Source: Iodidimonas sp. SYSU 1G8
GTDB lineage: Bacteria > Pseudomonadota > Alphaproteobacteria > SMXS01
DNA: 64,000 nt
Direction of reading: 5' to 3'
Assembly (NCBI RefSeq): GCF_039655775.1
Contig: NZ_JBBYXJ010000001.1
Coordinates: 1,470,001-1,534,000 of the forward strand
Position 1 is the first letter of the stretch, and each line of letters begins with the position of its first letter. Positions 51,570 to 55,117 of the stretch are shown here, piece by piece. Below the pieces are notes generated by a model. The model saw nothing but the letters and a program-made list of their open reading frames with translations, searched no databases and had not been told where the DNA came from. The translations under genes were made by a program, and so were the position numbers.

Positions 51570-51597
51570 CTTGAAAGCCCACCGGTCTTTCCCACAT
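51570..51597 (+). promoter_or_regulatory. Sigma-32 (heat-shock) promoter of hsp20
   Basis: CTTGAAA, 14 bases, CCCACAT: exact -35 box and a good -10 for sigma-32 (consensus CTTGAAA-N11-16-CCCCATnT). Transcription would start near 51604, giving a leader of about 78 bases. Confidence 0.65.
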
Positions 51598-51654
51598 AGG
51601 AAACAGCGGCGCCGACGGTCGGGCCGCGGAATCTGGGTGCCTTCGGGGCCCGTA

Positions 51655-51681
51655 ATTGCCCGCTTCCGGGAAGGAGGCAAT
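51655..51681 (+). promoter_or_regulatory. SD-sequestering hairpin, candidate RNA thermometer of hsp20
   Basis: ATTGCC / GGCAAT (with CTTC / GAAG above a 2x2 internal loop, 51661-51662 opposite 51674-51675, and a CGG loop) puts the whole AAGGAGG ribosome site (51671-51677) inside the stem, with the ATG starting at the base of the stem (51682). The weak internal loop beside the SD is the design of ROSE-type thermometers in alphaproteobacterial small heat-shock genes. Confidence 0.5.
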
Positions 51682-52092
51682 ATGACGCGTGTATCTCTGC
51701 TATCGAGTCCCTTTCTGCTCGGGTTCGATCGGCTGGAAAGTATGCTGGAGCGCGCCGCACGATCGGCCGACGATGCCTATCCGCCTTACAACATCGAACA
51801 GACCAGTGAAACGTCATGGCGCATCGTGCTCGCCGTGGCCGGTTTCCTGCCCGAGCACCTGAGCGCCACGGTTGAAGACAACCAGTTGGTCGTCGCGGGG
51901 GCGCAACCCGAGGACAAGACCCGCAATTTTGTTCACCGGGGAATTGCAACCCGACAGTTCCAGCGGCGTTTCATCTTGGCAGAGGGGATCGAAGTGGTAC
52001 GCGCGGGTGTCGAGAACGGTCTTCTGACCATCGAGCTGACGCGCCCCAAGACGCAAAGCGTGGTTCGGAGAATCGATATCGTCACCAGATAA
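51682..52092 (+). CDS. Small heat-shock protein, Hsp20/IbpA type
   Basis: 136 residues. The alpha-crystallin domain (about 30-125) has YPPYNIEQTSETSWRIVLAVAGF at its start and GVENGLLTIELTRP at its end (the conserved G-x-L). It holds unfolded proteins for refolding. Start ATG 51682 with a very strong AAGGAGG; the open frame upstream has no similarity. Paired with a DUF1150 gene 34 bases on, as in many alphaproteobacteria. Confidence 0.95.
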   Translation: MTRVSLLSSPFLLGFDRLESMLERAARSADDAYPPYNIEQTSETSWRIVLAVAGFLPEHLSATVEDNQLVVAGAQPEDKTRNFVHRGIATRQFQRRFILAEGIEVVRAGVENGLLTIELTRPKTQSVVRRIDIVTR

Positions 52093-52126
52093 CGCCTGTG
52101 ACCGGCTCGCGAAAGGAGAGGTCGAT

Positions 52127-52342
52127 ATGATCGAGACACATACCTTGAAGAACCTGACGCCCGAGGCGTTTCTCGCCCTCGGCGCCGAGGATACCATCTA
52201 TATCCGCCCCATAGTGCAGAATGGCGTGCTGGCCTTTTCAGTCCATACCGGCGCCGGGCAACCCATCGGCCTCCTGGCAAGCGCCGATCACGCCCAGGCG
52301 GCGGCGCTCCAGCATGACATGACGCTGGTCAGCGTCCACTGA
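52127..52342 (+). CDS. DUF1150 protein
   Basis: 71 residues. The family pattern LGAEDTIYIRPI, then AFSVHTGAGQPIGLLASADHA, is clear. Usually linked to hsp20 genes, but no function is known. AAAGGAGAG precedes the ATG. Ends at a bidirectional terminator. Confidence 0.92.
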   Translation: MIETHTLKNLTPEAFLALGAEDTIYIRPIVQNGVLAFSVHTGAGQPIGLLASADHAQAAALQHDMTLVSVH

Positions 52343-52355
52343 CCCTCAAACAAAC

Positions 52356-52380
52356 GCGGCGAGGCCCGGGCCTCGCCGCT
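52356..52380. terminator. Bidirectional terminator between DUF1150 and ptsN
   Basis: Perfect 24-bp palindrome GCGGCGAGGCCC / GGGCCTCGCCGC between convergent stops, with short T-rich flanks on both sides. Confidence 0.75.
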
Positions 52381-52399: not shown

Positions 52400-52867
52400 T
52401 CAGGCGGCGTTGGTCTGCGCATTCCCCTGTGTCAGGAGCGCATACAACGCTCCCGCGCCGTCGGCACCGCGCAATTTTTCACACATCGCCCGGTCCCGCA
52501 ACAGGCGGGATACCTTCGCCAGCGCCTTGAGATGGTCCGCGCCCGCGCTCTCCGGGGCAAGCAGCATGAAGATCAAATCCACCGGCTGATCGTCGATGGA
52601 CTCGAAATCGATCGGCTCATCGAGCTTGGCGAATAGCCCGTACAACCTGTCGATCTTTTCGAGCCGTCCATGGGGAATGGCCACGCCCTGCCCCACGCCC
52701 GTGGTCCCAAGACGCTCACGGCCCAGGATCGTCTCCAGGATCTCGCGCGAGGCGATGCCTGTCAGGGTCGCCGCACGCTCCGACAATTCCTGCAACGCCT
52801 GACGCTTGCTGCTGGCCTTCAAGCCGGCAAAAACCGCGTCAGGCGATAGAAGCTGCTGAATTTCCAT
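52400..52867 (-). CDS. ptsN: PTS IIA-like nitrogen regulatory protein
   Basis: 155 residues, EIIA-Ntr fold. The phosphorylated His is in GVAIPHGRLEKI (about residue 67). It is part of the PTS-Ntr phosphorelay that senses nitrogen and potassium status and lies by tradition next to rpoN and hpf. Ends close to the DUF1150 terminator. Start ATG 52867. Confidence 0.95.
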   Translation of the reverse strand: MEIQQLLSPDAVFAGLKASSKRQALQELSERAATLTGIASREILETILGRERLGTTGVGQGVAIPHGRLEKIDRLYGLFAKLDEPIDFESIDDQPVDLIFMLLAPESAGADHLKALAKVSRLLRDRAMCEKLRGADGAGALYALLTQGNAQTNAA

Positions 52868-52908
52868 GGCGCATCCGTTCCTCAGCGAGACGGGCTTGAA
52901 AGCATGAC

Positions 52909-53481
52909 CTAGTTCTGGCCCTGCGGATCGATCCAGCCGATGTTGCCATCCGGCCTGCGATACACCACGTTGAGACGACCGTGGGACGAATTACGGAACA
53001 TCACGACCGGTGCGTCCGACAGATCCATGCGCATGACAGCCCCGCCGACGGTCGTGGTCGGGATATCGAGCCGCATCTCCGCAACAATAACCGGCTGGTG
53101 ATCTTCCGGTTCCTCGTGATCTTCATGTTCACTGGCCAGAACGTAACCGGCCGCTTCGACCAGTTCCGCGTCGCCCTTGTGGTTCGCATGATGATTGCGC
53201 AGGCGTCGCTTGTACCGGCGCAGGCGCTTCTCGATCCGCTCCAGCGCCTGATCGAAGGTCGCGTAGGGATCCGCGGCAGACGCGTGGCTTTGCATCTGGA
53301 TGCCGTGCCCCGCATGCACGAGACACTCGACGCGGATCATATGGGCCTCGGGCGAGAAGGTAATGTGAGCGCTGACCGCGCGCTCGAAATACTTGCTCAC
53401 CGTCTCGTCGATCCGGTCTGTCACGTGCTTGCGCAGTGCCTCGCCTACATCGATCTGCTTGCCGTTGACGTGAATTTCCAT
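52909..53481 (-). CDS. hpf: Ribosome hibernation promoting factor, long form
   Basis: 190 residues. The N-terminal ribosome-binding domain starts MEIHVNGKQIDVGEALRKHV (1-110 or so), and the C-terminal dimerisation domain ends PVVMFRNSSHGRLNVVYRRPDGNIGWIDP. The long form makes 100S ribosome dimers alone. I start at the ATG at 53481, which gives the family N-terminus. Confidence 0.95.
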   Translation of the reverse strand: MEIHVNGKQIDVGEALRKHVTDRIDETVSKYFERAVSAHITFSPEAHMIRVECLVHAGHGIQMQSHASAADPYATFDQALERIEKRLRRYKRRLRNHHANHKGDAELVEAAGYVLASEHEDHEEPEDHQPVIVAEMRLDIPTTTVGGAVMRMDLSDAPVVMFRNSSHGRLNVVYRRPDGNIGWIDPQGQN

Positions 53482-53617
53482 GCTTTGCGTTACACCCTGC
53501 GATCTTCGTGATGAGTTCCAAGAGGTGCCGAAGCCGACTCTTGCGGATCTTGCCCCCGCCAAGAGGCGCGGACCATAGTGGTGTCGGCGTTGACTGTCAA
53601 ATTCTGAGCCCCCGTTC

Positions 53618-55117
53618 CTACCGCCCTGCTTTCAGCCGCCGTCTTCGCACCGATGACGGAATATGCATCGCCTCCCGGTACTTTGCGACCGTGCGACGCG
53701 CGATATCAATATCATCGTCCCGGAGCAGCTCCACGAGCCTGTCATCGGACAATATGGCGTTCGGCGACTCCTTGTCGATCAACTCCCGGATCCGGTGGCG
53801 GACTGCTTCGGCGGAATGGGACTCGCCCCCTTCGGCCGCCGCGATCGCCGCCGTGAAGAAATACTTCAACTCGAAGGTTCCGCGCGCGCAAGACAGATAT
53901 TTGCCGGCCGTGACACGGCTGACGGTGCTTTCATGCATGCCGATGGCATCGGCGACCTGCTTCAAGTTGAGGGGGCGCAGATGAGCGACGCCGCGCAGGA
54001 AGAACCCCTCCTGGCGGCGGACCAGTTCGGCGGCCACCTTGAGGATCGTCTTCGCACGCTGGTCCAGCGCCTTGACCAGCCAGCTGGCATTGCTGAAGCA
54101 GTCGGACAGATAGGCGCGGTCGTGCTTGGACCGGCTGGCGACCCGCACCTCGGCATAATAATGCGCATTGACCAGCACACGGGGCAGCACATCCGCGTTG
54201 AGTTCCACGCCCCATGACCCGTCCGGCCTGCGGGCGACGAAGACGTCAGGCGTGACCACGTCGGCGGTGACCGCGTCGAAGGCCAGGCCGGGCTTTGGAT
54301 CCAGTGCCCGCAGCTCCACCAGCATGTCGGCGAAATCCTCGTCGCTGACGCCGCACTGCCGCTTGAGCCAGTCGATACGGCCCTCCGCGAGGGCTTCGAG
54401 ATTCTCGACCAATGTTTCCATGGCCGGATCAAACCGGTTCCGGTCCCGCAGCTGGAGAGCGAGGCACTCCGCGAGGTTGCGCGCGCATACGCCGGGCGGG
54501 TCGAACTGCTGCAGGATGTCGAGAACACGCTCGACATCGTCCAGCGCGCAGCCGAGCCGTTCGGCCACCTCCGCAATGGAATCGCGCAGATAGCCACTGT
54601 CATCGACCAGATCGATGAGGTAGCTCCCGATCATCTTCTGGCGCCCATCGGCCAACGTCATGCCAAGCTGGTCAGTCAGATGTCCGCGCAGGGTCGTTGG
54701 AACGGCCAGGCGCGCCGATGGGTCATCCAACGGGCCGCCACCCTCGCCGCCCTCACGGCCGCCGCTCCAGGGACTGGCGGGTGAGGCATGCAGGAGATCG
54801 TCGGCGACCGGCGCAGGCCCCAGGTCCCGATCGTCATTGGTGAAGACATTATCGTAGCCGCTGTCGATCGGCGCATCCGGCGTATCCAGCGCGGGCGTGC
54901 TGGGCGTCGCCGCATCGACACCGGTCGCGGCTTCCGCGAGAGGTGCATCGCCGGCCGCGTAATCGAATTCGAGCAGAGGATTGGACTCGACCTGTTGCTC
55001 CACGAAGGAGACAAGGTCCAGGTTCGAGAGTTGCAGCAGCTTGATGGCCTGTTGCAACTGTTGCGTCATGACCAATTGCTGGCCTTGCCGCAGAACTTGT
55101 CGCAATCCGGATGCCAT
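53618..55117 (-). CDS. rpoN: RNA polymerase sigma-54 factor
   Basis: 499 residues. The N-terminal Gln-rich activator domain is MASGLRQVLRQGQQLVMTQQLQQAIKLL; an acidic linker of about 100 residues follows; the core-binding and HTH regions precede the RpoN box ARRTVAKYRE close to the C-terminus. It directs transcription from -24/-12 promoters such as the one at 9260-9276. Neighbours lptB (upstream) and hpf/ptsN (downstream) are standard. Confidence 0.97.
   Translation of the reverse strand: MASGLRQVLRQGQQLVMTQQLQQAIKLLQLSNLDLVSFVEQQVESNPLLEFDYAAGDAPLAEAATGVDAATPSTPALDTPDAPIDSGYDNVFTNDDRDLGPAPVADDLLHASPASPWSGGREGGEGGGPLDDPSARLAVPTTLRGHLTDQLGMTLADGRQKMIGSYLIDLVDDSGYLRDSIAEVAERLGCALDDVERVLDILQQFDPPGVCARNLAECLALQLRDRNRFDPAMETLVENLEALAEGRIDWLKRQCGVSDEDFADMLVELRALDPKPGLAFDAVTADVVTPDVFVARRPDGSWGVELNADVLPRVLVNAHYYAEVRVASRSKHDRAYLSDCFSNASWLVKALDQRAKTILKVAAELVRRQEGFFLRGVAHLRPLNLKQVADAIGMHESTVSRVTAGKYLSCARGTFELKYFFTAAIAAAEGGESHSAEAVRHRIRELIDKESPNAILSDDRLVELLRDDDIDIARRTVAKYREAMHIPSSVRRRRLKAGR

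Follow-up and report, generated by a model that had tools for sequence, protein, structure and literature searches.

The question raised by this locus is how heat reaches the hsp20-larA gene pair: at transcription, at translation or at both. The pair lies on the forward strand of the window, by which the whole analysed stretch of 64,000 nucleotides from Iodidimonas sp. SYSU 1G8 is meant. The first gene, hsp20 (51682-52092, with its ATG at 51682), encodes a small heat-shock protein (sHSP) of 136 amino acids (PF00011, 63.2 bits). The second, larA (52127-52342), starts 34 bases 3' of the end of hsp20 and encodes a DUF1150 protein of the Lon activator family (PF06620, 36.5 bits). The same gene pair is found in Caulobacter crescentus, where LarA activates the Lon protease and its gene shares a sigma-32-controlled operon with that of sHSP2. 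In the available text of that study the leader of the operon is not treated, and the words 'thermometer' and 'untranslated' do not occur (PMC10665427). For the window it is considered likely that hsp20-larA is under double heat control, in which a sigma-32 promoter is combined with a hairpin over the Shine-Dalgarno (SD) sequence that is orthologous to ROSE-type RNA thermometers and would loosen on heating.

Promoters of the sigma-32 type combine a CTTGAA-type -35 box with a CCCAnnT-type -10 box at the proper spacing. Such a promoter had been proposed in the initial annotation and is present at 51570-51597 on the forward strand, where CTTGAAA (51570-51576) is followed after 14 nt by CCCACAT (51591-51597), in agreement with the generally known consensus in both boxes and in their spacing. 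The combination is rare: the pattern CTTGAA-N14-17-CCANAT has a single match in the window and none in 100 shuffles, and the whole genome of 3.9 Mb contains 10 matches versus 2 for a reversed-pattern control. Two of these 10 stand 5' of the sHSP genes, of which the genome possesses two in total. In all seven genus leaders the boxes are kept at a constant distance while the letters of the spacer vary. The genome also contains two genes of the RpoH family above the cut-off. Judged by its sequence and conservation, the assignment as a heat-shock (sigma-32) type promoter appears sound.

With its start placed from the -10 box, the leader would extend from 51604 to 51681 (forward strand, about 78 nt). 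This length, and a closing hairpin of 27 bases with the complete AAGGAGG inside, had been expected beforehand and can be read directly from the sequence. Two further hairpins precede the closing one, each with a single bulged G in its 5' arm: hairpin 1 (51606-51627, GCGGC[G]CCGA/UCGGGCCGC), which is supported by the fold and by conservation in the genus, and hairpin 2 (51635-51651, GGGU[G]CC-UUCG-GGGCCC), which is supported by conservation. All nine pairs of hairpin 1 are kept in the seven genus members (7/7), one of them being A-U in the window and G-C in the others. The six pairs of hairpin 2 are likewise all kept in 7/7, and its pair 4 is U-A, U-G or C-G. The genus thus holds compensatory exchanges in both hairpins (A-U/G-C and U-A/C-G). 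The pairs were counted by script, since alignment A3 misplaced hairpin 2 of one row; alignment A1 had been dropped with its hairpin arms out of register.

Hairpin 3 (51655-51681, forward strand) masks the SD sequence AAGGAGG of hsp20 (51671-51677). From the outside inwards it consists of AUU/AAU, GCC/GGC, a tandem G-G and C-A mismatch, and CUUC/GAAG; the outer arms correspond to ATTGCC (51655-51660) and GGCAAT (51676-51681). The mismatch loop had been placed next to the SD. It lies inside it instead, with G51662 opposite G51674 and C51661 opposite A51675. The core of the hairpin (CUUC/GAAG, G-G, C-A and GCC/GGC) is invariant in 7/7 genus members, and of the outermost pairs that had been drawn, the two U-A pairs form in 3 and 1 of the 7 and the A-U pair in 2. 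Because the core is invariant, hairpin 3 shows no compensatory change among these seven members. The compensatory changes that the initial annotation expected in relatives are therefore missing from the SD hairpin of the genus itself, but they are present in genus hairpins 1 and 2 and, class-wide, in the orthologous SD hairpin.

An accidental hairpin in a G+C-rich leader, without any function, would explain several properties of the window. The folding energy of the whole leader is not better than that of shuffles (z 0.52; 141 of 200 shuffles at least as good), and 11 of 21 further window genes with an SD, as called by a crude home-made gene caller, have theirs at least as deeply buried as hsp20. 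With SD burial so common in this G+C-rich window, it was rejected as stand-alone evidence. The window alone would support nothing; it is because of the comparative data that the claim goes beyond chance. Against an accident stand the invariance of the hairpin 3 core beside variable spacers, the compensatory changes in hairpins 1 and 2 and the covariation across the class. These data already make an accidental origin unlikely, and it is given hardly any weight here.

For the class-wide comparison, 90 orthologous loci were collected (80 named and 10 of the same family), from which one duplicate (L087) was dropped to leave 89. The leaders were compared with a descriptor in which the stem over the SD has one bulged base between two blocks of three pairs; 73 of the 89 match it with a bulged G and none with a bulged A, C or U. 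Among 169 control gene starts, called with the same home-made tool, a bulged G was found at 2. In an evenly drawn class sample, in which by eye a few sequences recur from the orthologue set, the bulged-G descriptor is found in 51/68 hsp20-type and 14/20 ibpA-type leaders, and another bulged base in one hsp20-type and no ibpA-type leader. The upstream hairpin has a bulged G in 60/89 leaders (A, C and U in 1, 2 and 1), and UCGCU or UUGCU stands opposite the SD in most of the wider leader set. The SD of hsp20 is also more deeply buried across the loci (median unpaired 0.24, n=82) than that of other genes (0.40, n=139).

The arms of this hairpin covary. With anchors chosen blind to pairing, the outer pair -3 of the SD hairpin is G-C in 44 leaders, C-G in 27 and A-U in 4. 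It is paired in 87%, compared to 46% when the 3' arms are re-dealt (z 8.1, by a control that ignores relatedness). When 38 leaders were aligned to the class-wide model R1, 98.9% of the cells were standard pairs and 7 of the 12 pairs were doubly changed in what is a structure-fitted alignment; slid controls reached at most 65.6% of cells paired. From these 38 leaders a second class-wide model, R2, was built. A search of 142 class genomes with R2 returned 19 hits with E values up to 0.1. Of the 10 best-scoring ones, 9 lie directly 5' of an sHSP gene, which is hsp20-type in five cases and ibpA-type in four; the remaining 10 of the 19 hits are not so placed. A bulged-G SD hairpin of this kind is the hallmark described for ROSE thermometers.

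According to the literature, ROSE elements stand 5' of sHSP genes in alpha- and gammaproteobacteria, with more than 40 counted in a review (PMC4166951). They comprise two to four hairpins, of which the 3'-proximal one pairs with the SD (PMC3669281, PMC4166951). Opposite the SD they carry the motif U(U/C)GCU (PMC3669281) with a conserved bulged or mispaired G (PMC9450479). The E. coli ibpA leader is an experimentally studied ROSE-like thermometer (PMC3669281). Typical ROSE-like motifs were recognised in 2011 5' of ibpA and hspD in the Roseobacter Nautella sp. R11, which belongs to the same class and involves the same kind of gene as the window; neither sequence nor model is given in the available text (PMC3230580).

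The window leader resembles the ROSE elements (RF00435, RF01832 ROSE_2 and RF02523 ROSE_3; E. coli ibpA and Bradyrhizobium hspA) in its position directly 5' of an sHSP gene and in its fold of three hairpins, the last of which masks the SD. In the structure lines of ROSE_2 and ROSE_3, moreover, the 5' arm of an upstream hairpin leaves one base unpaired, as in the window. It differs from them by CCGCU in place of U(U/C)GCU, by the tandem G-G/C-A loop, by a longer and stabler stem and by scores below all gathering scores. No Rfam ROSE model reached its cut-off on the window leader, the best being ROSE_3 with 12.9 bits over its full length versus a gathering score of 43. The same cut-offs were passed by 0/20 other hsp20 loci scanned, and the gathering scores of RF00435 and RF02523 by 0/142 class genomes. 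Since the cut-offs are missed class-wide, the low score of the window says little about function. Rfam ROSE coverage has a gap in this class, where bulged-G SD hairpins are common 5' of sHSP genes.

The class-wide models R1 and R2 also recognised the window leader poorly, with 13.8 bits (rank 2 among the window hits) and 9.5 bits (rank 6), which was counted against plain membership. Strict ROSE membership was rejected on the motif and the Rfam score. What stands of the ROSE-type fit claimed initially is the orthology with the ROSE-type leaders of the class; the motif, the bulged-G descriptor and the score do not follow it. The leader is best called a putative variant descended from ROSE-type leaders. 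This homology is argued from the orthology of the gene, the place of the leader, the promoter and the leader of the sister genus, and would not be reached by score alone.

The departure is a property of the genus. CCGCU stands opposite the SD in the window and in all seven genus members, and the single-bulged-G descriptor fails in 7/7 genus leaders, whereas the 73 leaders that match it are all among the other 82. In the window, G51662 faces the SD base G51674 within a 2x2 loop and is not a single bulge. The Rhodobacteraceae loci among the compared leaders have the canonical form, unlike the window. The sister genus (L090), whose leader can be aligned with the genus leaders, has the canonical UCUC[G]CUU..AAG|GAGA, and because it keeps this form, the genus form appears derived. 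The genus thus looks to have swapped a single bulged G in a short stem for a G-G and C-A tandem mismatch in a longer one. Within the window genome itself, the second sHSP gene (L001, ibpA-type) lies on the second contig of G000 (776246-776695, minus strand). It has a promoter of the same type and in the same place (CTTGAAC..CCAAAT) and, by eye, a leader with a bulged-G upstream hairpin and the canonical UUGCU in its SD hairpin UAUU[G]CUC..GAG|AGUA.

The exchange has energetic consequences in silico. Predicted energies of the genus SD hairpins run from -8.6 to -11.7 kcal/mol, versus a median of -4.9 in the 82 others; the window hairpin, at -11.7 kcal/mol, is about twice as stable as those of its relatives. 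The E. coli ibpA SD hairpin, predicted at -4.6 kcal/mol, is similar to the non-genus median. Zero points are predicted near 90 °C for the window and at 80-92 °C for the genus, versus a median of 69 °C for the relatives. Pairing of the SD with the anti-SD is also predicted to be stronger in the genus (-12.6 to -15.9 versus a median of -8.6), in figures that are not independent of the former since the letters are shared with the hairpin. The stronger genus SD would thereby offset the tighter hairpin.

From these energies and zero points, together with the loss of the single-bulged-G form in 7/7 genus leaders, it could be argued that the hairpin is too stable to melt. It would then lower translation at every temperature, and heat control would be left to sigma-32 alone. 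Yet both mismatches, G-G and C-A, persist in 7/7 members without repair to Watson-Crick pairs, and the SD is stronger than that of the relatives. Folding of the whole leader kept the SD mostly buried from 25 to 60 °C, in line with the initial annotation, to which a free SD would have been adverse; the same nearest-neighbour folding also keeps the SD of E. coli ibpA shut at 60 °C. As it predicts no melting even for this control, the computation cannot decide on the window leader, and folding over temperature was dropped as a melting test. A permanently closed hairpin is regarded as improbable.

A different explanation is offered by E. coli IbpA, for which PMC10474464 reports repression of its own translation by way of the 5' UTR. 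Hsp20 might in the same way bind its own leader, and the response to heat would then come from its titration by unfolded proteins. A conserved leader common to both sHSP types would suit such a protein-binding site, as would the identity of the two bulged positions, which are both G in 38/38 aligned leaders. Repression by Hsp20 would nevertheless be compatible with a thermometer and need not exclude one; as the explanation in place of one it is considered quite improbable.

In the preferred reading of double heat control, the leader probably holds the ribosome site shut until heat arrives, and its homology makes it likely to melt at heat-shock temperature. Heat would increase transcription from the sigma-32 promoter. 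In the leader RNA, hairpins 1 and 2 with their bulged G would be stable, and hairpin 3 would pair the whole SD sequence and loosen on heating, allowing 30S subunits to bind hsp20. In the genus, the sensing hairpin would rely on the tandem G-G and C-A in a longer stem, matched by the stronger SD. If so, the G-bulge, which is regarded as central to the sensor, would be replaceable by another mismatch.

The leader may in addition gate Lon activation through the downstream larA. A larA-like ORF lies 3' of hsp20 in 84/90 of the collected loci, and in 43 of these 84 its start overlaps the hsp20 stop or is at most 11 nt from it. In the window, a second SD-masking hairpin precedes larA (52100-52123, forward strand, GACC-GG-CUC/GAG-A-GGUC). 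All 7 genus members keep it, as does the sister genus in an altered form; as a class-wide feature it was not seen in the 84 loci. The larA-proximal hairpin hence looks like a trait of the window genus and its sister genus. By eye, a similar layout (CUCGCUUC..GAAGGAG) is seen in the E. coli ibpA-ibpB spacer.

Should the leader act as proposed, Lon activation would be turned on by heat through translation as well as through new transcription. ROSE-type leaders are already known. No RNA thermometer tied to larA was encountered in the literature searched, which included the text of PMC10665427, and this absence is a weak one. A more elaborate version is advanced tentatively and is rather doubtful as a whole: the sensing hairpin would have been rebuilt on G-G and C-A (possibly with a protonatable C-A), a stronger SD and a second hairpin at larA, so that chaperone and Lon activator alike reach full translation only when it is hot.

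Among the R2 hits, one of 25.2 bits with both hairpins (L143, G096:C54:383-439) has no sHSP gene in the 380 bases downstream on its contig. At the other end of the window pair, a consensus scan points to a terminator-like inverted repeat (52356-52379, no strand assigned) that would close the hsp20-larA operon. On the minus strand, 52400-55117 holds ptsN, a ribosome hibernation factor gene and rpoN, which are convergent to hsp20-larA, and the repeat may terminate transcription from both sides.
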